Part shown: positions 9,271 to 36,555 of the stretch, in pieces
Layout: every line of letters begins with the position of its first letter
How positions within the stretch are numbered: position 1 is the stretch's first letter
Source of the DNA: a virus
DNA length: 36,555 nt
Strand: one strand, 5' to 3'
Virus record (IMG/VR): IMGVR_UViG_3300017776_000059
Span: 1-36,555 of that record
Notes under the pieces: generated by a model
Told to the model about the DNA's origin: nothing
The model's input: the letters and a program-made list of their open reading frames with translations, nothing else
The model's database searches: none
Translations under genes and position numbers: made by a program

Positions 9271-10191
9271 CTATTTTTTCTCATTCCAGTCGTATATTTG
9301 ATTAAGTTTTAGTCTTATTTCATCTGGATCATCACCAAATTCTTTGACTAGGCCCTTATAACCTTTTAATTTCTTATTTGATTTTTGAAGTGCTTCGATT
9401 CGTTTTTCTAAATCTCTTTTTTTAGATGTTTTAGCATATTCTTTTTTACTCTTCCATTGTCTTAATGATATGTTAGCAGCAATCAATAGCAATACTGCAA
9501 GTGGGTCAAATACAAATATGAGTATTAATATAACAATTCTAACAGCATGATCAAAATATTGTTTTGCCTCATCACCATATATGAGTTCAGCAATATACTT
9601 GATAGGTCCTACCTCTGCTTCAATTTTGTCTTGTTCTAATTGTAAACTTGCTTTTTTATTTGTAAGTTCAGCAATCTTATCACTAGCACTATTGATTGCT
9701 TCATTTAAAGCATTACGTTCTTCTTCTTGTTTCTTACGTTCTTTTAATCCTCTAGTCACATATTCTTTATCAATATAAACTTCAAGTGCTTTATCTAAAA
9801 GCGTTATGGTACTCTGTGCTCTTTCAATAATTAAATTTTGTTGTGATATTTGTTTATCAATCAATTCTATTTTTATATTATTACCTGAAGTAGGTTTAAC
9901 TTGATCTAGGTGTGCCTTAGATAAGAAACCAAAGATACCCATTGATGTTATGAATATTAAAATTATGATTGCTGAGAATAGATATGCTTTTAAAAGTCTA
10001 GGTATATTTGCACGCCAATTATGATACAACCATGAGGCTGCAACTAATTTACCTACTTCTAAAGCAGTACCCATTGCAACAATAGGTATAAACGCACCAG
10101 CAAATAATGTTGCTAAACCAAGTATAGAATACCCAGCAGCAATTACTGATATGCTTATTGCACTTATAAATGTCAGTAGTGTTAAGAACAT
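9271..10191 (-). CDS. Polytopic membrane protein with coiled-coil domain
   Basis: This 306-residue protein has two N-terminal hydrophobic segments (about residues 1-20 and 22-42), a third near 68-92, a long coiled coil around 105-205 (IDKQISQQNLIIERAQ, AINSASDKIAELTNKKASLQ), a fourth hydrophobic segment near 215-240 and a basic coiled-coil tail. The architecture recalls DUF4407-like membrane proteins and a protein conserved in marine T4-like phages. It may act in the host envelope. An AATAAATA box lies four bases before the ATG. Confidence 0.75.
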   Translation of the reverse strand: MFLTLLTFISAISISVIAAGYSILGLATLFAGAFIPIVAMGTALEVGKLVAASWLYHNWRANIPRLLKAYLFSAIIILIFITSMGIFGFLSKAHLDQVKPTSGNNIKIELIDKQISQQNLIIERAQSTITLLDKALEVYIDKEYVTRGLKERKKQEEERNALNEAINSASDKIAELTNKKASLQLEQDKIEAEVGPIKYIAELIYGDEAKQYFDHAVRIVILILIFVFDPLAVLLLIAANISLRQWKSKKEYAKTSKKRDLEKRIEALQKSNKKLKGYKGLVKEFGDDPDEIRLKLNQIYDWNEKK

Positions 10192-23865: not shown

Positions 23866-24539
23866 ATAATTTTCTGATCCTTTATCCATTCTTGTAATTT
23901 TTTTGCATATGTTAACATACCTATATGATTTGTATGTTGATCTTCGTCTGCGACCTGATACTCTTTGTTTGTTAATGTAAACTCAAATAAACTATATTCA
24001 GGTTGATAATAATATATAGTATCTATTTGTTCTCTTAATTTTATAACTTCCCAATTTTTAGGATCGTATTTCATAATACCATTAATAGTATTATACATAA
24101 AATACTTTTTACCTTGTAATAACTTTTGTATTAGTAATATATTTTTGTATGAGTGATATGCTAATTGTTCTCTCATATCATAATTTTTAAAGTCTATATC
24201 ATTCCACTTTTTTGTTTCAAAGTTATCAATAGGTAGTTCTGGTCCTTTACTAAATGCTTTTCTTTTAGTTCTATATCTTTTCTCTCTTGTAGATACATAT
24301 TGAAATCTTGCTGGGTGTGATAAACCTATCATGTATATACCATCTTCAAAATCATAAGTCATTAATCTTCTAACAACGGTGTCTATACCTGCACCTGGAC
24401 TTGCATAGTTAACTTCTTCTAAATTATTAAAATCTGCAATGTATGTTGATGTAGATTTATGCTCATCTATTAGTGTGTTAAGTTCACTAGCACAATTACC
24501 ATATGAAACACTACAACCTAAATTATACAACTTTGACAT
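23862..24539 (-). CDS. SGNH-hydrolase-like protein
   Basis: I choose ATG 24539, preceded by GAGGAAAA. The 225-residue product has MSKLYNLGCSVSYGN, an oxyanion/nucleophile-like block, VNYASPGAGIDTVVRRLMTY and DEDQHTNHIGMLTYAKKL near the end, which supplies the D..H of the SGNH/GDSL family. The pattern suggests an esterase or acyltransferase that could de- or re-acylate a sugar. The nucleophile Ser assignment is tentative. Confidence 0.55.
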   Translation of the reverse strand: MSKLYNLGCSVSYGNCASELNTLIDEHKSTSTYIADFNNLEEVNYASPGAGIDTVVRRLMTYDFEDGIYMIGLSHPARFQYVSTREKRYRTKRKAFSKGPELPIDNFETKKWNDIDFKNYDMREQLAYHSYKNILLIQKLLQGKKYFMYNTINGIMKYDPKNWEVIKLREQIDTIYYYQPEYSLFEFTLTNKEYQVADEDQHTNHIGMLTYAKKLQEWIKDQKII

Positions 24540-25911
24540 TATATTTTTCCTCAAATTTTATAGCATGAAATCTATTATTCACCATCGGTTTACCTTTTAT
24601 ATTTAGTGACGTGTTTAATAACATAGGACAACCTGTCTTATCTTTCCATCTTTTAAGTAGATTGTAGAAACCTGGATTGTCTTTCTCACTTACGGTCTGT
24701 ACCCTACTTGTACCATCTGCGTGTACTATGGCAGGAAAATCATTCGGGTGTTTACACTTTGCCACAAACTGCATATAAGGACTTCTTCTAACAGGCATTT
24801 CAAAATATTCGTGTACATCTTCCTCTAGTATTGCTGGTGCGAAAGGTCTAAACTTTTGTCTTTTCTTTATTTGATTTACTTTATCCTTTACATCATCACC
24901 TCTAGGATCAGCAAGTAAACTTCTATTACCTAATGCCCTAGGTCCATATTCTGCTCTACCATTTGCGACACCAACCATGTCATGCGATTGTATCTCTTGT
25001 ATGATACTATCAATCGGATACTCACCTTCTATGTTTGTGCCTAGATAAGGTCCTTCCCATTTAAGTTTCTTTTTAGTGACAGCAGGTATACAACCTAGTG
25101 CTGAACCACTATCGCCTGGGTTAGGCATGATCCATATATTCTTTTTTACTAAACTATTAGCAACACAATTTAAAGCACAACCACCACTTAAAATTAGATT
25201 ATCTTTCTTACAATACTTGTCAACTAATTTAAGTAATATTTCCTCATAGACTTTCTGTACTGAGGCTGCTAACTCAAAAGGTTTTGCCCATGGTAAAAAA
25301 TCTCTACAACCCTTGTGTAGATTAGTCTTAAATAGTTTTTTGATTGCTGTTGTATAATTAGGTTTGCCATATGCAGCCATACCCATTGTTATATATTCTT
25401 CTTCGTTTGCTTTAAGACCTATTCTATCTGTTATTGCTGAGTATAATAACCCTACTGAATATGGATATTTCATTGAGTGTATCTTCTTATGATTATCCCA
25501 TACCGTTAATGTTTCAAACTCACCTATTGCGTCTATCGTCAATATATTTGCGTCATCAAAAGGTGCTGTATAATATCCACCTGCCATATGTGACTCATGG
25601 TGAGATACATATTCATCAATCTTTATATTAAATTGTTTTAGATATACAGATGGTAGTTTCTTGTAATCAAATGCTTTGCTATATTGTGTGGCATATAATT
25701 GTCTTGCCTTTTTAAGTATAGGTCTTTCAAAGTAAATGACACAATCCCAAGGTCCATTCATATGTGCCTCGCTCACTATATCTAAATTTAAAAACTTATC
25801 GTTCTTAATTTGTGAGTATCTTTCAGCATGAGCAGCCCATATGATTTTATCATCTTCAACTATTGCCATAGCTGCGTCATGGTTTAAACAATTGATTCCT
25901 AAATATCTCAT
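24523..25911 (-). CDS. Carbamoyltransferase (NodU/CmcH/TobZ family)
   Basis: The 462-residue enzyme starts MRYLGINCLNHDAAMAIVED, has metal-binding HHESHMAGGYY and TIDAIGE, then LSGGCALNCVAN (nucleotide-binding region) and the C-terminal hallmark GRAEYGPRALGNRSLLADP, KFRPFAPAILEED and LLNTSLNIKGKP. The family adds a carbamoyl group from carbamoyl phosphate to a sugar or antibiotic hydroxyl. It is shorter than the usual ~550 residues but all core motifs are present. The start is coupled by ATGA to the 27-aa gene. Confidence 0.93.
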   Translation of the reverse strand: MRYLGINCLNHDAAMAIVEDDKIIWAAHAERYSQIKNDKFLNLDIVSEAHMNGPWDCVIYFERPILKKARQLYATQYSKAFDYKKLPSVYLKQFNIKIDEYVSHHESHMAGGYYTAPFDDANILTIDAIGEFETLTVWDNHKKIHSMKYPYSVGLLYSAITDRIGLKANEEEYITMGMAAYGKPNYTTAIKKLFKTNLHKGCRDFLPWAKPFELAASVQKVYEEILLKLVDKYCKKDNLILSGGCALNCVANSLVKKNIWIMPNPGDSGSALGCIPAVTKKKLKWEGPYLGTNIEGEYPIDSIIQEIQSHDMVGVANGRAEYGPRALGNRSLLADPRGDDVKDKVNQIKKRQKFRPFAPAILEEDVHEYFEMPVRRSPYMQFVAKCKHPNDFPAIVHADGTSRVQTVSEKDNPGFYNLLKRWKDKTGCPMLLNTSLNIKGKPMVNNRFHAIKFEEKYNVKVV

Positions 25912-29750: not shown

Positions 29751-30476
29751 TTAATCTTTCCCTTCTATTGATGATCCCTTAAAAGGGTCATTTCTTGTAT
29801 CTCTATTATTCTCATCATATTTTGTTGAGGCAACTGGTCTTCTTTGTTCTTTATAAAAGAAATCTTTACTGTCGCCAAATGCCCACTTCTCTTCCTGTTC
29901 ACTAAAAAAGTATCTAGTTGACACTTGAAAGTCAGGCGTCTTTAAATCTTTAGGTGTTAACGATTGTTCAAACCACAACATTCTATTATTAGGCTGAGCA
30001 AAGAATTGCCCGTTGTCAAGTTTACCAAAATTATGTTGTTTATGTTCAGCAGGTACTTCAGAGACAGATGTATTTATAATATTAGGATCACTATGGGTAC
30101 TATCAACTGTAAACAAGTATTCACCACCCATTCTCTTACCACCTTTTAACATTATCTGTACATCACAATTCTTTAATAATCTTTTTGACCACACTTGTAT
30201 GTCATAAGAGAAACCATCCCATAAAGATATTTCACCTAGTGATAATTGATCTTCTTCTTTTATATCTTTCTTCCATACAAAAGCAGATAAAGGAAACTTA
30301 TCAAAACAAGCACCGTAATCTGGCATGTATGCTTCAAACATTAATGCTCTACCTTGCATTGATTTAACTGCAAGCAAAACACATTCAACAAATTCACCAT
30401 GACCTTTTTCTAAATCATGTAAATATTCTTTTCTAATCCAACATTTTATATATGGTACATTTGCTACAAAGTTCAT
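29751..30476 (-). CDS. Conserved hypothetical protein between nrdA and nrdB
   Basis: ATG 30476 overlaps the nrdA stop (TAATG) and gives 241 residues; a GTG at 30488 is less likely. The protein starts NFVANVPYIKCWIRKEYLHD, then GEFVECVLLAVKSMQGRALM and FEAYMPDYGACFDKFPLSAF. WDGFSYDIQVWSKRLLKNC and LWFEQSL follow, with a polar tail. It resembles a protein often found beside RNR genes in marine T4-like phages. No catalytic motif is visible. Confidence 0.75.
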   Translation of the reverse strand: MNFVANVPYIKCWIRKEYLHDLEKGHGEFVECVLLAVKSMQGRALMFEAYMPDYGACFDKFPLSAFVWKKDIKEEDQLSLGEISLWDGFSYDIQVWSKRLLKNCDVQIMLKGGKRMGGEYLFTVDSTHSDPNIINTSVSEVPAEHKQHNFGKLDNGQFFAQPNNRMLWFEQSLTPKDLKTPDFQVSTRYFFSEQEEKWAFGDSKDFFYKEQRRPVASTKYDENNRDTRNDPFKGSSIEGKD

Positions 30477-32788
30477 TATATTGTACACGAGTCACAATTC
30501 TCGTCCTCCTCTTTTGGTTTATCTTCTTTAGTTTCATCTACCCAGCCAACTGGATGTGCTGGTTCGTCTTCGTCTTTTTTACTATCATATGTATTTTGAT
30601 AGTATGATGTCTTCCAACCATACTTGTAAGTATTTAAAAGGTCTTGAGCCATAACTGATATAGGTACTTCACCATTCTCAAAGTGTTCAGGATTATAAGA
30701 CCAGTTACCTGATATTGCCTGATCAAAATACTTTTGCATAACAGAAACTACATTTATATAACCTTCGTTGTTAGGCATATCCCATAATAATGTATAGTTA
30801 TTTTTTAGTCTTTGATAATCAGGTACTATCTGTTTTAAAGGACCTTTTTTACTTTTCTTAATACTTAAATAATCTCTAGGTGGTTCAATACCATTAGTTG
30901 CATTAGAAACAATAGATGAAGACTCACTAGGCATTTGTGCTGATAATGTACTATGTCTTAAACCATTTTTCTTAATTTCTTTTCTCAACCATTCCCAATC
31001 ATAAGTAAGTTCTCTCTTAACTAATTCGTCAACATCTTTCTTATATGTATCAATAGGTAAGATACCATCAGAGTATTTTGTTCTATCAAAATAGTCGCAC
31101 TTACCTTTTTCTTTTGCAACTTGCATACTTGCACTTAATAGGTAAAATTGAAATGCTTCTGTAAGTTTATCTACTTGTCGCCATGCAAGTTTCTGATTAT
31201 ATTTGTAACCTTTTTTAGCAAGGTAGTGAGCAAGGCCAATGTAACCTATACCTAAACTTCTTCTTGCCTTTGTAGATACTTCGGCAGATACAATAGGATA
31301 TTTTTGATGATCTATTATTTCATCTAGTGCCCTTACTGCAAGATCACAAAGAGGTTCTAGTTCGTCTCTCTTATCTATCTTACCAACATTGATAGCAGAT
31401 AAAATGCACAATGCAATTTCACCCTCACCATCAATATGTTGAATTGGATCAGTAGGTAGAGTTATCTCTTGGCAAAGGTTAGACATTAATATTCTATCCT
31501 TGAAAGATGAGTGGTCGTTTGAGTGGTCAATATTCATAATATAGATACGACCTGTCTCTGCTCTTTCTTTTAAGATGTCAAAGAATAACTCCTGGGCACC
31601 TACTTTTGTTTTCCACACACTAGTTTTTCTCTCTGCCTTTTCATACAGCTCATCAAACTTATCAGTACCCCAAGCCTCATACAACTCTGGTACTTCATGT
31701 GGTGAAAATAATGTTATATCTTCATCTTTGATAAATCTTTCATAAAATAATTTAGATAACTGAATAGAGTAATCTAATTTTCTAACTCTATTATCTTCGG
31801 TACCTTTATTATTTTTTAAGACAATGATGTCTTCTATTTCTTTGTGCCAAATAGGGAAGTGAACGGTAGCTGATCCTCCTCGGACTCCGTTTTGCGTACA
31901 ACATTTAACTGTTGCTTCAAACTTCTTAAGGAAAGGAATAACACCCGTATGCTGTACCTCACCGCCTCTAATCCGTGAGTTGATACCTCTGATCCTTCCT
32001 GCGTTAATTCCGATCCCAGCTCTTTGGGCCACATAACGCCCAATAGCCATGTCACTGCTAAAGATACTAGGTAAAGTATCGTCCACATCAACAAGCACAC
32101 AACTAGCGTACTGGCGCATAGGAGTCCTAACACCAGCCATAACAGGAGTAGGAATATTGATTTTAAACTGACTAATAGCGTCATAGTATTTTTTAACATA
32201 ACTCATCCTTTTGTTCTTTGGGTATTGTGAAAATAGAGTAGCCGCAATCATCATGTACATAAATTGTGGCGTTTCATATATCATATTCACACTTCGGTCT
32301 TGTACAAGATATTTGTCTAGCACTTGTCTTAAACCTGCGTAAGTAAAATCATAATCTCTATTGTGATTAATCCAGTTCTCCATTCTATCAAAATCTTTTC
32401 TATCATAGTTTTTTAATATCTCATCATCATACATTTTTAAATCTACTGTTTTCTTAACATGGTCAAAAAAGTGTGGGTGATCCCATAGTTTATGAAAGAT
32501 TTGTTTTCTTAAACTGAATAGTAATAATCTTGCTGCTACATAAGTGTAATTAGGTGTATTTAAGTTTATTAAATCTGCAGCTGACTTAATTAGTATTTGT
32601 TGTATCTCATCTGTTGACATACCTTCATAGAATTGTAGGCCACTATTCATTTCTATTTGTGAAGCAGATACACCTTTTATATCTTCTACAGCGTATTCAA
32701 CCATTGAATGGATTTTATCTATATCTAATTTTTCTGTTCCTCTGCCGTTTCGTTTATTGACGTTAATAGACTCGTTTCCTGTGACCAT
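30476..32788 (-). CDS. nrdA: Class Ia ribonucleotide reductase alpha subunit NrdA
   Basis: The 770-residue large subunit has an N-terminal ATP-cone (about residues 10-100, VNKRNGRGTEKLDIDKIHSM), then PTPVMAGVRTPMRQYASCVL with the active-site Cys. The substrate-site loop AGIGINAGRIRGINSRIRGG, SNLCQEITLPTD and EPPRDYLSIKKSKKGPL follow. The C-terminal CDSC is the redox-shuttling pair that glutaredoxin or thioredoxin would reduce. AAGGAG precedes the ATG. It works with NrdB downstream. Confidence 0.96.
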   Translation of the reverse strand: MVTGNESINVNKRNGRGTEKLDIDKIHSMVEYAVEDIKGVSASQIEMNSGLQFYEGMSTDEIQQILIKSAADLINLNTPNYTYVAARLLLFSLRKQIFHKLWDHPHFFDHVKKTVDLKMYDDEILKNYDRKDFDRMENWINHNRDYDFTYAGLRQVLDKYLVQDRSVNMIYETPQFMYMMIAATLFSQYPKNKRMSYVKKYYDAISQFKINIPTPVMAGVRTPMRQYASCVLVDVDDTLPSIFSSDMAIGRYVAQRAGIGINAGRIRGINSRIRGGEVQHTGVIPFLKKFEATVKCCTQNGVRGGSATVHFPIWHKEIEDIIVLKNNKGTEDNRVRKLDYSIQLSKLFYERFIKDEDITLFSPHEVPELYEAWGTDKFDELYEKAERKTSVWKTKVGAQELFFDILKERAETGRIYIMNIDHSNDHSSFKDRILMSNLCQEITLPTDPIQHIDGEGEIALCILSAINVGKIDKRDELEPLCDLAVRALDEIIDHQKYPIVSAEVSTKARRSLGIGYIGLAHYLAKKGYKYNQKLAWRQVDKLTEAFQFYLLSASMQVAKEKGKCDYFDRTKYSDGILPIDTYKKDVDELVKRELTYDWEWLRKEIKKNGLRHSTLSAQMPSESSSIVSNATNGIEPPRDYLSIKKSKKGPLKQIVPDYQRLKNNYTLLWDMPNNEGYINVVSVMQKYFDQAISGNWSYNPEHFENGEVPISVMAQDLLNTYKYGWKTSYYQNTYDSKKDEDEPAHPVGWVDETKEDKPKEEDENCDSCTI

Positions 32789-32797
32789 GTTATCTCC

Positions 32798-33811
32798 TTA
32801 ACAACGCTTGTATGAATTTAATTTAGTTAATGCTGATAGACCTGAATAGGTATTTTCTGTAATGATGTTTTGAATTTGTGATTTTGTCTTGCCTTGTAAT
32901 ATCATATCGTTAATATCTTTTTCTTCTTGTCCTTCTGGCCATATGACCAATTCGTAATCTTTTTCTACCACTCTATACATTCTATCTACAATTTGTTTAT
33001 TTCGTGGCTCGTTATCAAAGATAAACACCACGTCTTTTTTTTCTACTGGTAGTTGTAGGTCAGCACCAGCAGCTGCAAGGCAATTATCTATAAACAAACT
33101 ATCAATAGGACCCTCTACTATGTATAATCTATTTTGTAGATTTACACGTTCAAGGCCATATATTTTTTGTTTGTTTTCATCAAATTTTAAAGTAAGATAT
33201 TTAGGTGTTTCTTTACCAAAAGCTCTACCTTGAATTGCAAAGACTTCACCATCAACATCATAGAAAGGTATAATCAATCTAGGATGCTCGTAAGATTTAT
33301 TTAGTTCATCAAAAGTACCAGGTCTTAATTTATTTACATAAGATTGGAACTTGTCGCAATAAAATAATCTATCGTAATACTGCTTAGGTATTTGACGATT
33401 AATCAAATACTTTTTTGCAGGATGTGTGTCTTCAATTTGACTAAAGTTTGTTAAACCTTTTAGGGGTGTAGATTTTAATTTTTCTTTAGTATTGTTTTTA
33501 AACTTGTCTAATAGGTTTGTTTCACCTATTGGTTTATTACCTTTATATCTCTCTAAAACATACTGATCGTATAAAGGTCTATCTACAAGTTTAATTAGAT
33601 TTGCCAGATTGAGGCCTGAACCACAATTGTGACATTTGAAAAACATTTCTGTTTTTACTTTGTAAAGATATGCCCTTGCTTTGGTTTTACTCTTTTTAGA
33701 GTCACCACATACAGGACATCTAAAATTATAGAGATAATCTCTTTTCTTTTTAAACTGCTGCAATCTAGGCTGTATTTTACTGATATAATCTAAATCAATG
33801 TAACCACTCAT
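32798..33811 (-). CDS. 61: DNA primase gp61
   Basis: The 337-residue primase has an N-terminal zinc ribbon (NFRCPVCGDSKKSK and FKCHNCGSGLNLANL) and a central TOPRIM-like core: LYIVEGPIDSLFIDNC with the Glu, then AAAGADLQL and VVFIFDNEPRN with the DxD-type acid. T4 gp61 makes RNA primers with gp41 helicase. The start has no Shine-Dalgarno sequence. The -10 of a consensus promoter ends exactly six bases before the ATG, so the mRNA is probably leaderless. Confidence 0.93.
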   Translation of the reverse strand: MSGYIDLDYISKIQPRLQQFKKKRDYLYNFRCPVCGDSKKSKTKARAYLYKVKTEMFFKCHNCGSGLNLANLIKLVDRPLYDQYVLERYKGNKPIGETNLLDKFKNNTKEKLKSTPLKGLTNFSQIEDTHPAKKYLINRQIPKQYYDRLFYCDKFQSYVNKLRPGTFDELNKSYEHPRLIIPFYDVDGEVFAIQGRAFGKETPKYLTLKFDENKQKIYGLERVNLQNRLYIVEGPIDSLFIDNCLAAAGADLQLPVEKKDVVFIFDNEPRNKQIVDRMYRVVEKDYELVIWPEGQEEKDINDMILQGKTKSQIQNIITENTYSGLSALTKLNSYKRC

Positions 33812-33847: not shown

Positions 33848-34360
33848 CTAGTTTAACCAAGTAAACCAACCTCGTTCCATCATCTCTGGACCCCACAATC
33901 CTACGATAATAGCACCACCTATAATCATCCATCTATACTTCTCAAGCATACCTACTCTATTACCTAGATTGACATTGAGTTGTTTTATCTCACACATAAG
34001 ACGTTTTTCTGATAGTTCAACTTCATCTCTTAAATCTTTGACAGATTTGTTTAACCTAGAGTGTATATCTTCAAATTTGTTATCACTTTCTTTTCTTCTA
34101 TTTTCAAGTAATGAAAATATAGCCTTATCTATATCTTCATTTTTAGATAGTTTTTCTTCATGTACAGCTAACATTGATTTAATAGATGATGATATATCCG
34201 TTAATTTGTCTATGGTATTATCTAGTTTTACATTCACATTGGCAACGGATTTTACTTCGTTTCTTAAAACCTCAATAGATGTCTGTTGCTTAACTACGTC
34301 TTTTGATAGTTGAGCCACAGTTTTTCTAGTTTCACCGTTTCCGTTTGTTCCGTTTGCCAT
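33848..34360 (-). CDS. Coiled-coil protein with C-terminal membrane anchor
   Basis: This 170-residue protein has a flexible Asn/Gly N-terminus (MANGTNGNGETRK), a long coiled coil through residues 20-135 (VLRNEVKSVANVNVKLDNTI, RRKESDNKFEDIHSRLNKSV) and a C-terminal hydrophobic segment (RWMIIGGAIIVGLWG) with a short tail ERGWFTWLN. It is tail-anchored and may tether a complex to the host membrane. It follows the cyclase unit. No Shine-Dalgarno sequence. Confidence 0.75.
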   Translation of the reverse strand: MANGTNGNGETRKTVAQLSKDVVKQQTSIEVLRNEVKSVANVNVKLDNTIDKLTDISSSIKSMLAVHEEKLSKNEDIDKAIFSLLENRRKESDNKFEDIHSRLNKSVKDLRDEVELSEKRLMCEIKQLNVNLGNRVGMLEKYRWMIIGGAIIVGLWGPEMMERGWFTWLN

Positions 34361-34375: not shown

Positions 34376-34576
34376 TTATGCGACTTTTAGCATGGATCTT
34401 AATTGAGCTATTTGTCTTATTTTCCAAAGCTTTAAAAATGTTCTTCTACGCCTTCGTTCTTTTTGTTTTTTAATTTTGAGCCAGTGTAAATTGAGTAGGT
34501 AAAGTTTTTGTTTTTTGTCATTTTGTATTGTCCTTTTGATTAGTATTCGTAGTTTTCTTTTTTGGATTAGTGTCAT
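34376..34576 (-). CDS. Questionable basic frame (66 aa)
   Basis: This frame is extremely rich in K, R and L (KERRRRRTFLKLWKIRQ) and overlaps the cyclase end by 59 bases. Such composition is typical of a wrong frame in A+T-rich DNA. It is listed because the space would otherwise have only a 29-codon frame. I favour the shorter frame at 34432 as the real start region. Confidence 0.25.
   Translation of the reverse strand: MTLIQKRKLRILIKRTIQNDKKQKLYLLNLHWLKIKKQKERRRRRTFLKLWKIRQIAQLRSMLKVA
34432..34521 (-). CDS. Small protein after cyclase, possible frameshift (29 aa)
   Basis: ATG 34521 overlaps the cyclase stop (ATGA) and encodes MTKNKNFTYSIYTGSKLKNK, then KNEGVEEHF and stop. The stop comes right after a run of five T's. 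Skipping one T would continue as FKALENKTNSSIKIHAKSRI, a normal-looking protein. Either a 29-aa peptide, a natural +1 shift or a single-base sequencing error is possible. Confidence 0.4.
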   Translation of the reverse strand: MTKNKNFTYSIYTGSKLKNKKNEGVEEHF

Positions 34577-36395
34577 AACCCTCCTGTACTGTATAGATTG
34601 CTACTTTATTTGATTTACCTTTCACTTGAACATCATCTAACTTTTTGAAATTATATTTTTTGGATATGTCTTTGTAAGTATCGTGGCCAACAACTAAGGT
34701 TGCGTCATAATTTTTAGATACACCTTCTAATCTACTTGCAAGATTAACGGCGTCACCTAAAACAGAATAGTCAAATCTTTGTTCAGATCCCATATTCCCA
34801 ACTACGGCCTTTCCTGAATTAATACCTATACCTATATTTAGTTTATTACCTTTACCAAAACCATCACTATCATTTAACTCTTTTAGTTTATCTATCATTT
34901 GTAGTGCCGAAACGATTGCTAACTCTTTATGATTTGCTGTGTCAATTGGCGCATTCCAAAATGCCATTATACAATCTCCCATGTACTTGTCAATAGTACC
35001 ATTGTTCTTCATTATTATATCTGTCATAGGTGTTAGAAACTTGTTAATTACTATTGTTAGACCTTGAGGATTTTTTTGATACTTTTCTGAAATAGGAGTA
35101 AACCCTCTTATATCACAGAATAAAAATGTTAACTCTTTTGTTTCACCACCTAGTTTTAGTAGATTAGGATTCTGTTGTAATTTTTTAACCATCTTAGGTT
35201 CTAGGTAATGCTCAAATTGTTTTTTAATTTGTTGTTTTAATTTAAACTCTAAAACAAATCTATTAAATATACTATGTAATCCTACAAATATTATTGTTAT
35301 GAATATCCAACTAGGATCAAATAGCATAAGTTGTTGTTGAAAGAAAAAGTTAGAATATACAAAACTACCTATACTCATCATTACCATGGCAGCTGCAACC
35401 ACATAGTAAGGTGTAAATCTTGTAAGTATTATTAAAATTAAACCTGCAACAAAAGCAATCGCAAGTTCTATTAAAGGCATTATATCAGTTCTTGTTATTT
35501 GTTTTTCTTGTAGCACGGTCTCTAATGTAGAAGCTGTCAGTTCATAAGCGTATCTTTCACCTACTGGTGTTGCGATTATGCCACCTAAACCCTCTGCACT
35601 CATACCTATGATTACGGTTCTGCCATTAAACTCTGTAAAGTTCATATCTGCTGCTGATATAGTTTCATATTCTTTATTCCATCTTAACCATACTCTAGCA
35701 TTTGCGTCTGTTTTAATTGTAGAAAAACCAGGTACTCTCATGGCTTGTACACCTGCTTCACCTGATTTAACTTGATAACTTGGTGCACCCATGGCAACTC
35801 TAATAACTTCTATTGCCATTGCAGGATATATGTCTTCTCCTATTTTCATCAATAAAGGCATTCTTCTTACAACACCATCTACCTCGGGTGCTGTATTTGA
35901 AACACCTACACCAGCAGCGTTATGAAACTTCTCAATAGGACCTAACATTCCTCCCCATTCAAACAAGAAAGGTAATGGGTCATTTACTTTTGCAACTCCT
36001 CTAGGTACACCATTCTTATTAATCTGGTTAGTGCCTATCTGTGCTATTACTATATGATATGGCAATACATCTGCTAAATCATCATCATAACCCATTCTAT
36101 CTGTTTCACTAAAAAGTATGGGTACTACTATAACTTGAGCGCCATCTAATCTTGCTTTAAGTATGATGTCTGCTAATACATGTCTAGGCCAAGGCCATTG
36201 ACCATATTTTTCTATTGCCTTTTCATCTATGGTAATAACACCTATGTCTTTTGAAATCTCTTTTGTTTCTGATTGTAATAATATATCAAAGGACTTTAAT
36301 CTTAATATCTCTTTTATTTGTGGGTCTTTTACACCTATAAATGTTAAAACAAACAAGGTTATAAATGCAATAGTCCAGTGTGTTATATATTTCAC
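34518..36395 (-). CDS. CHASE2-domain class III adenylate/guanylate cyclase
   Basis: The protein (about 625-627 residues, GTG start at 36395 or 36401) has an N-terminal membrane segment, a CHASE2 sensor region (to about residue 295, including GVITIDEKAIEKYGQWPWPR), three membrane helices (about 305-400) and a C-terminal cyclase domain. Counting from the 36401 start: metal Asp at FCDIRGFT (D430) and GDCIMAFW (D476), adenine-contact Lys in DKYMGD (K472), S546, N553 and R557 in YSVLGDAVNLASRLE. All key residues are present, so cAMP synthesis is likely. It could send a second messenger in the infected cell. GTGA overlap with the upstream stop favours 36395. Confidence 0.92.
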   Translation of the reverse strand: MKYITHWTIAFITLFVLTFIGVKDPQIKEILRLKSFDILLQSETKEISKDIGVITIDEKAIEKYGQWPWPRHVLADIILKARLDGAQVIVVPILFSETDRMGYDDDLADVLPYHIVIAQIGTNQINKNGVPRGVAKVNDPLPFLFEWGGMLGPIEKFHNAAGVGVSNTAPEVDGVVRRMPLLMKIGEDIYPAMAIEVIRVAMGAPSYQVKSGEAGVQAMRVPGFSTIKTDANARVWLRWNKEYETISAADMNFTEFNGRTVIIGMSAEGLGGIIATPVGERYAYELTASTLETVLQEKQITRTDIMPLIELAIAFVAGLILIILTRFTPYYVVAAAMVMMSIGSFVYSNFFFQQQLMLFDPSWIFITIIFVGLHSIFNRFVLEFKLKQQIKKQFEHYLEPKMVKKLQQNPNLLKLGGETKELTFLFCDIRGFTPISEKYQKNPQGLTIVINKFLTPMTDIIMKNNGTIDKYMGDCIMAFWNAPIDTANHKELAIVSALQMIDKLKELNDSDGFGKGNKLNIGIGINSGKAVVGNMGSEQRFDYSVLGDAVNLASRLEGVSKNYDATLVVGHDTYKDISKKYNFKKLDDVQVKGKSNKVAIYTVQEGYDTNPKKKTTNTNQKDNTK

Positions 36396-36555
36396 AACCA
36401 CTTACCTATTAATTTAAGAAAATATGCTATAGGTATGACACATATAGCAGCGATTATACCTTGTTCTAATAACATTATAAAAAAGATGTAAACACAAAAA
36501 ATATAAAACGCTATAGTCTTCCAATGAAAGATAGCTGCTAATATTAGATCGGAAG
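36392..36555 (-). CDS. Partial membrane protein at the contig edge
   Basis: The frame is open from the right edge to TGA 36392. LAAIFHWKTIAFYIFCVYIF is followed by LLEQGIIAAICVIPIAYFLK and LIGKWL, giving two hydrophobic segments. The stop overlaps the cyclase GTG. The first codons at the edge derive from adapter sequence and are not real. An in-frame ATG (MLLEQGI) is an alternative start. Confidence 0.55.
   Translation of the reverse strand, partial: SDLILAAIFHWKTIAFYIFCVYIFFIMLLEQGIIAAICVIPIAYFLKLIGKWL
36546..36555 (+). other. Illumina adapter remnant at contig end
   Basis: The last ten bases, AGATCGGAAG, are the first ten of the common Illumina TruSeq adapter. This marks untrimmed read end and a linear-contig boundary, not phage DNA. 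Confidence 0.85.

Follow-up and report, generated by a model that had tools for sequence, protein, structure and literature searches.

The window, that is, the whole stretch of DNA analysed here, is a single linear record from IMG/VR, 36,555 bases long. Close to its right-hand end, on the minus strand, lies a GTG-initiated open reading frame without interruption (34518-36401, 627 aa). A second GTG at 36395 is the likelier start, because it shares bases with the stop codon of the preceding ORF (GTGA) and an AGG lies 9 nt ahead of it, and it gives a gene at 34518..36395 (-) encoding 625 aa. The preliminary description of this DNA had used the coordinate of the 36395 start, yet its residue numbering runs from 36401. 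The product matches PHROG 35576 over residues 2-607 (E 8e-227). Its N-terminal part is a CHASE2 domain, a periplasmic sensor region (PF05226, 3.4e-41; residues 18-320, 35442..36350, minus strand), for which the Pfam boundaries include the flanking membrane helices; its C-terminal part is a class III cyclase catalytic domain (PF00211, Guanylate_cyc, 3.6e-23; residues 421-605, 34587..35141, minus strand). One transmembrane helix is predicted at the N-terminus and three after CHASE2 (about 308-329, 332-357, and 364-386), so that sensor domain, membrane bundle and cyclase domain follow each other on a single chain, the layout of a CHASE2 sensor cyclase. In an AlphaFold2 model built from 42 phage sequences (mean pLDDT 80.6), the catalytic part resembles solved class III cyclases with Z of 24.0-23.6, among them CyaB (3r5g, Z 23.9) and CyaC (1wc1, Z 23.6). 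By sequence, the nearest PDB entry to the catalytic domain is P. aeruginosa CyaB.

All six catalytic residues are present in the window protein and align with those of solved and bacterial cyclases: the metal-binding D430 and D476, the adenine-selecting K472 and D550, and the transition-state N553 and R557. With an intact frame, both Pfam domains and D430, K472, D476, N553 and R557 in place, the claim that a phage encodes a CHASE2-adenylate cyclase with every catalytic residue held, and D550, which had not been listed, can be added. In an alignment of 83 phage rows, where phage Melnitz is entered twice, D430, K472, D476, and R557 never vary (83/83), and N553 is replaced in Melnitz alone (by Ser). 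In a second, overlapping set of loci the complete DKDDNR set was found in 40 of 41 cyclases, the remaining one being truncated. Between close phage pairs the median dN/dS was 0.24 in CHASE2 and 0.078 in the catalytic domain, which is purifying selection and puts the gene far beyond chance. From the K472/D550 pair, cAMP is well predicted as the product.

The genes on the 3' side of the cyclase are those of a T4-like phage. A basic ORF of 66 aa (34376..34576, minus strand) overlaps the 3' end of the cyclase by 59 bp, and is kept at the equivalent place in contigs L008, L010, L013, and L018-L020. It is followed by a DUF7201 coiled-coil/membrane protein (33848..34360, minus strand; PF23831, 2.4e-15), a T4 gp61-type DNA primase (32798..33811, minus strand; PHROG 47, 1.1e-81), and the large subunit of ribonucleotide reductase (nrdA, 30476..32788, minus strand). 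The last two are phage landmarks, 59% and 82% identical respectively to their counterparts in Pelagibacter phage Mosig, where the DUF7201 counterpart likewise adjoins the primase. At the place of the cyclase, the cultured relative Mosig (L087:36717-39383) encodes two other proteins, one of 611 aa and unknown family and one of 132 aa, next to the DUF7201 gene that it shares with the window; comparison of the two phages suggests a variable slot next to the primase. The 611-aa protein (Mosig_00201) was considered as a cryptic cyclase and rejected, as it has no Pfam cyclase or CHASE2 match. Further along the window we observed two phage auxiliary genes, one for a ferredoxin-like protein between nrdA and nrdB (29754-30488) and one for a NolO-like carbamoyltransferase (24523-25911), located downstream of a gene with a methyltransferase domain. 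A perfect consensus match to a sigma-70 promoter (TTGACA-16-TATAAT; 34966-34993, minus strand) lies inside the catalytic domain and faces DUF7201 and the primase. In the promoter and terminator scan of the window, match counts equalled those of shuffled sequence, and the Rfam search gave no match.

On the 5' side, the window holds only the 3' end of a gene for a small two-TM protein (36392..36545, minus strand), which overlaps the cyclase start (GTGA) and is about 62 aa long as read in contig L004. The last ten bases, AGATCGGAAG (36546..36555, plus strand), are a remnant of sequencing adapter of non-phage origin; they are missing from L004, which otherwise matches the window and differs there. 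Contigs L038 and L048 have comparable small proteins between their curlin and cyclase genes, and in phage contig L076 this place is taken by an IscU/NifU-like iron-sulphur scaffold gene (9631-10020; PF01592, 1.6e-37), so that varied small genes occupy the spot across phage contigs. The T4-like replication region first proposed for the gene holds for its downstream side (DUF7201, gp61-type primase, nrdA); upstream the window offers little sequence, and relatives show that the gene normally closes a cassette for curli, a system of protein-fibre export.

The cyclase is a phage gene. The proposed search for CHASE2-cyclases in marine T4-like phages returned full-length relatives in the cultured phages HTVC008M (54% identical) and Melnitz (47%), and at least 592 confirmed relatives in a scan of viral contigs. 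Phage cyclases form a single clade against 10 bacterial rows (SH-aLRT 100). Together with the T4-like flanks, the cultured-phage copies and this clade rule out host contamination or misassembly, the objection that a phylogeny might have raised. A scan of a genome collection for bacterial relatives, run with poor patterns, gave two phage contigs in Flavobacteriaceae MAGs and one Treponema catalytic domain. Both contigs (L089 and L090) carry the phage cyclase and are phage contigs binned with bacteria; L089 has a curli cassette beside the cyclase and L090 has T4-like tail genes. The host of the window's phage is very probably SAR11, a bacterium abundant in the ocean, given that its ribonucleotide reductase and primase are closest to those of Pelagibacter phage Mosig.

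The closest known counterparts differ from the window. HTVC008M, a T4-like phage of SAR11, has a full-length CHASE2-cyclase with the six catalytic residues (KC465899, 11972-13807), located beside tail genes rather than the primase; its CHASE2 is about 60% identical to that of the window, whereas its catalytic domain is of another type (c4) and only about 47-50% identical. The Melnitz protein (MZ577097, QZI94833) is also full-length and belongs to the same cassette, but its host is OM43 instead of SAR11, and its catalytic domain carries N553S, sits on a long, fast-evolving branch and is 36.6% identical to that of the window, while CHASE2 is still 59.4% identical. In class III cyclases, losing the transition-state Asn strongly lowers activity.

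In HTVC008M and Melnitz the cyclase closes a series formed by csgF, csgG, curlin, a FecR-domain protein and a second curlin-repeat protein, and the order CsgF-CsgG-CsgB-FecR-curlin-cyclase recurs across IMG/VR contigs. It is complete in L006, a contig that shares synteny with the window (cyclase 80%, DUF7201 41%, primase 60%, nrdA 79%, and nrdB 80% identical). The window itself ends 154 nt upstream of the cyclase start, the final ten bases being adapter, so the curli genes, which fall outside it, almost certainly lie just beyond its edge; for the window's own phage, their presence is judged from relatives such as L006. When phage FecR proteins were used as queries, a CHASE2-cyclase was found downstream in 38/38 loci with at least 4 kb of downstream sequence and CsgG upstream in 70/70 loci with enough upstream sequence, among the best 80 FecR matches; as these come partly from the same contigs as the scan for cyclase relatives, the counts are not a sample of all phages. 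The curli genes of these phages were described in earlier papers (PMC7029224, PMC9004378), and Wittmers et al., 2022 reported the type VIII secretion (T8SS) cassette with FecR and adenylate cyclase in SAR11 podo- and myoviruses, with the gene order and cyclase gene seen in the window's relatives, arguing for an alphaproteobacterial origin and reporting transfer from myo- to podoviruses; SAR11 itself has no curli genes (PMC9599517). Since the HTVC008M gene was already annotated as a cyclase and the cassette was already described, the kind of finding is not new, and the roles first suggested for the enzyme had missed the curli/FecR cassette that is its key context. What is new and testable here is the FecR pairing, the mosaic structure of the protein, and its likely role as a sensor.

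The FecR-domain protein has been read as an iron regulator, and the cyclase as a CsgD-type control (PMC9599517); we read the former as the partner of a bacterial-type CHASE2-cyclase, and the latter as a mosaic of two halves. On plasmids, a FecR neighbour was found at 9/10 CHASE2-cyclase loci versus 0/6 loci of cyclases in which CHASE2 was not detected, in a small, rhizobium-heavy sample where neighbours were called from record annotation and a profile made of phage FecR proteins only. At the one exception, on an Azospirillum plasmid (L101:2990-7636), the CHASE2-cyclase has no detected FecR neighbour and is directly upstream of a gene for a ShlB-type outer-membrane secretion barrel. The annotated bacterial FecR/CHASE2-cyclase loci that we read contain no curli genes. 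The same clustering is reported for Campylobacterota (PMC9239204), and S. meliloti CyaK has a FecR-TPR neighbour. As in the window protein, the DKDDNR active site is intact in the bacterial FecR-paired cyclases; overall identity between the window protein and CyaK is about 30%, and bacterial FecR partners are larger or otherwise fused, in contrast to the phage protein, which consists of a FecR domain only. Sequence comparison thus indicates that FecR and CHASE2-cyclase are a bacterial signalling pair independent of curli, and this pairing outside curli loci suggests that the phage FecR is probably the envelope partner of the cyclase and not an iron regulator. In the FecR proteins of L006, HTVC008M, and Melnitz, PF04773 is the sole Pfam match at E up to 0.1. 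We rejected a FecR-type anti-sigma iron regulator, as the cytoplasmic N-terminal regulator domain is absent from these three proteins, and for the same reason we find no support for the iron-dependent regulator proposed in the literature. Structure prediction of the phage FecR protein gave a pLDDT of 38.6, too low for use.

The two halves of the cyclase have separate histories. Phage catalytic domains split into distinct types, whereas CHASE2 domains make one group, and the trees disagree: by CHASE2, the window and L006 are sister to L008 (100/100), and L012 and L089 are sister to L036, yet in both cases the sister carries another catalytic type. A single clade for the window's catalytic type was rejected on CHASE2 data (AU p 5e-47), and the two CHASE2 clades were rejected on catalytic data (AU p 0.001 and 1e-89), p values that are weakened by the groups having been named once the trees had been seen. 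Between the window or L006 and L008, identity falls from about 90% to about 30-70% inside the same gene pair. Independent contigs share each mosaic (L005/L006; L008/L010; L012/L089), which argues against assembly chimeras. We also considered whether catalytic type tracks the 3' flank, and rejected it: the two main types are each found at both the primase locus and the gp2 locus, indicating that the swap is independent of the flank.

Pairwise identities point the same way. CHASE2 identity correlates with that of CsgG (0.73) and FecR (0.67), and that of the catalytic domain barely does (0.27 and 0.22). After dereplication the values were 0.61 and 0.53 for CHASE2 and 0.20 and 0.13 for the catalytic domain. 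The correlation of CHASE2 with FecR is partly expected, as linked genes tend to share history; CsgB, however, lies nearer to CHASE2 than CsgG does and yet shows the weaker correlation. If only the main catalytic type is considered, the two halves of the cyclase correlate at 0.57, suggesting that swaps are occasional. There are signs, then, that the CHASE2 half is inherited with CsgG and FecR while the catalytic half is swapped between phages.

We propose that the cyclase is an inner-membrane sensor that would report the state of curli, or of the envelope, as cAMP to a host receptor. We give this reading as a whole a probability of about 0.5; that the enzyme is active, what its ligand is, whether the signal is positive or negative, the receptor and the gain for the phage are all inferred. 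The cyclase would be the output module of the phage-borne curli cassette and would be anchored, presumably as a dimer, in the inner membrane of SAR11 during infection, with CHASE2 in the periplasm, connected through the three-helix membrane bundle and a linker helix to the class III catalytic domain in the cytoplasm, which would turn ATP into cAMP. CHASE2 would read the envelope part of the cassette (the CsgG/CsgF outer-membrane channel, the secreted FecR-domain protein and the curlin subunits), most likely via the FecR-domain protein, which we consider the most likely input because FecR and CHASE2-cyclase genes adjoin in bacteria too. The cAMP would then act on a cyclic-nucleotide receptor, which would be the host's, given that a search for the cyclic-nucleotide-binding domain PF00027 in six phage records (HTVC008M, Mosig, Melnitz and three contigs; three of the six are complete genomes) gave no match at E up to 1; a receptor encoded by the phage was rejected on these grounds. 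We found nothing usable in the literature on a CRP/cAMP system of SAR11.

A precedent comes from S. meliloti, whose CHASE2 cyclases answer an external protein through the outer-membrane barrel NsrA, and whose CyaD1 makes cAMP constitutively when deprived of CHASE2 (PMC13001267, PMC5498481). By analogy, we propose that the phage's own outer-membrane channel (CsgG), secreted FecR-domain protein and CHASE2-cyclase may parallel this arrangement. The FecR-domain gene beside cyaD1, smc02177, was dispensable for perceiving the signal tested (PMC5498481), so FecR may act downstream or at another step. Against the sensor reading, Melnitz retains the cassette despite its altered active site. A possible refinement, which we regard as less likely than not, is that the system is a self-contained trans-envelope relay carried as a unit, in which CHASE2 is matched to the CsgG and FecR of its cassette and the cyclase domain is an interchangeable output, swapped between phages (the CHASE2 tree forces at least four changes of label) and altered by N553S at a catalytic residue in Melnitz, whose host belongs to another class.

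Among the alternatives to the sensor, the one that survives best, rather unlikely in our view, is that the phage simply raises cAMP and pushes CRP-type regulation of carbon and energy use in its host, the curli neighbours being hitchhikers. The conserved adenine-specific active site, the strong constraint on the catalytic domain and its retention with any CHASE2 lineage fit this. Hitchhiking is harder to reconcile with a FecR/CsgG linkage that is complete in testable loci, with the co-inheritance of CHASE2 with CsgG and FecR, and with the constraint seen on CHASE2 too; the receptor, moreover, is neither present in the phage records nor known from SAR11.

The reading of Wittmers et al., 2022, in which cAMP would act back on the phage's curli pore, by changing its expression or its gating, and FecR would sense iron or stress, accounts for the co-location of the cyclase with all curli genes and was argued by analogy with gammaproteobacterial CsgD control (PMC9599517). 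CsgD is nevertheless absent (PMC9599517), the six phage records hold no cNMP-binding regulator, and the phage FecR, a FecR domain alone (Pfam, E 0.1), gives no sign of an anti-sigma regulator architecture; we regard this timing role as unlikely. Interference with a nucleotide-signal defence, which the preliminary description had suggested, fared worse. A cyclase that supplies or misleads a defence based on cyclic nucleotides (Pycsar or CBASS, for example) would agree with the match of PADLOC PycC profiles (6e-27), but these hit the catalytic domain only and recognise a fold common to class III enzymes; K472/D550 in the active site form the pair for adenine, the partners are FecR and curli and not defence genes, and no cyclic-nucleotide-binding protein is found in the six phage records. 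Membership in Pycsar was rejected for lack of an effector with PF00027 in those records, and a counter-defence or decoy role is highly improbable. Equally improbable is a catalytically idle protein in which CHASE2 and the membrane part work and the cyclase domain is a relic, as N553S and the long branch of Melnitz might suggest, since all other phages keep every catalytic residue and the catalytic median dN/dS of 0.078 lies below that of CHASE2.

Exchange of the catalytic half between phages is an unusual example of recombination within a signalling protein; the half exchanged may be the one that needs to fit the host. Phages of SAR11 rank among the most numerous on Earth, and the curli system that they carry comprises multiple genes. 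If the last two partners of the cassette are read as a bacterial FecR/CHASE2-cyclase signalling pair, this system gains an output that can be tested, cAMP, and a sensor that can be tested as well, and the published question of why phages have curli can be put as specific experiments on cAMP during infection.
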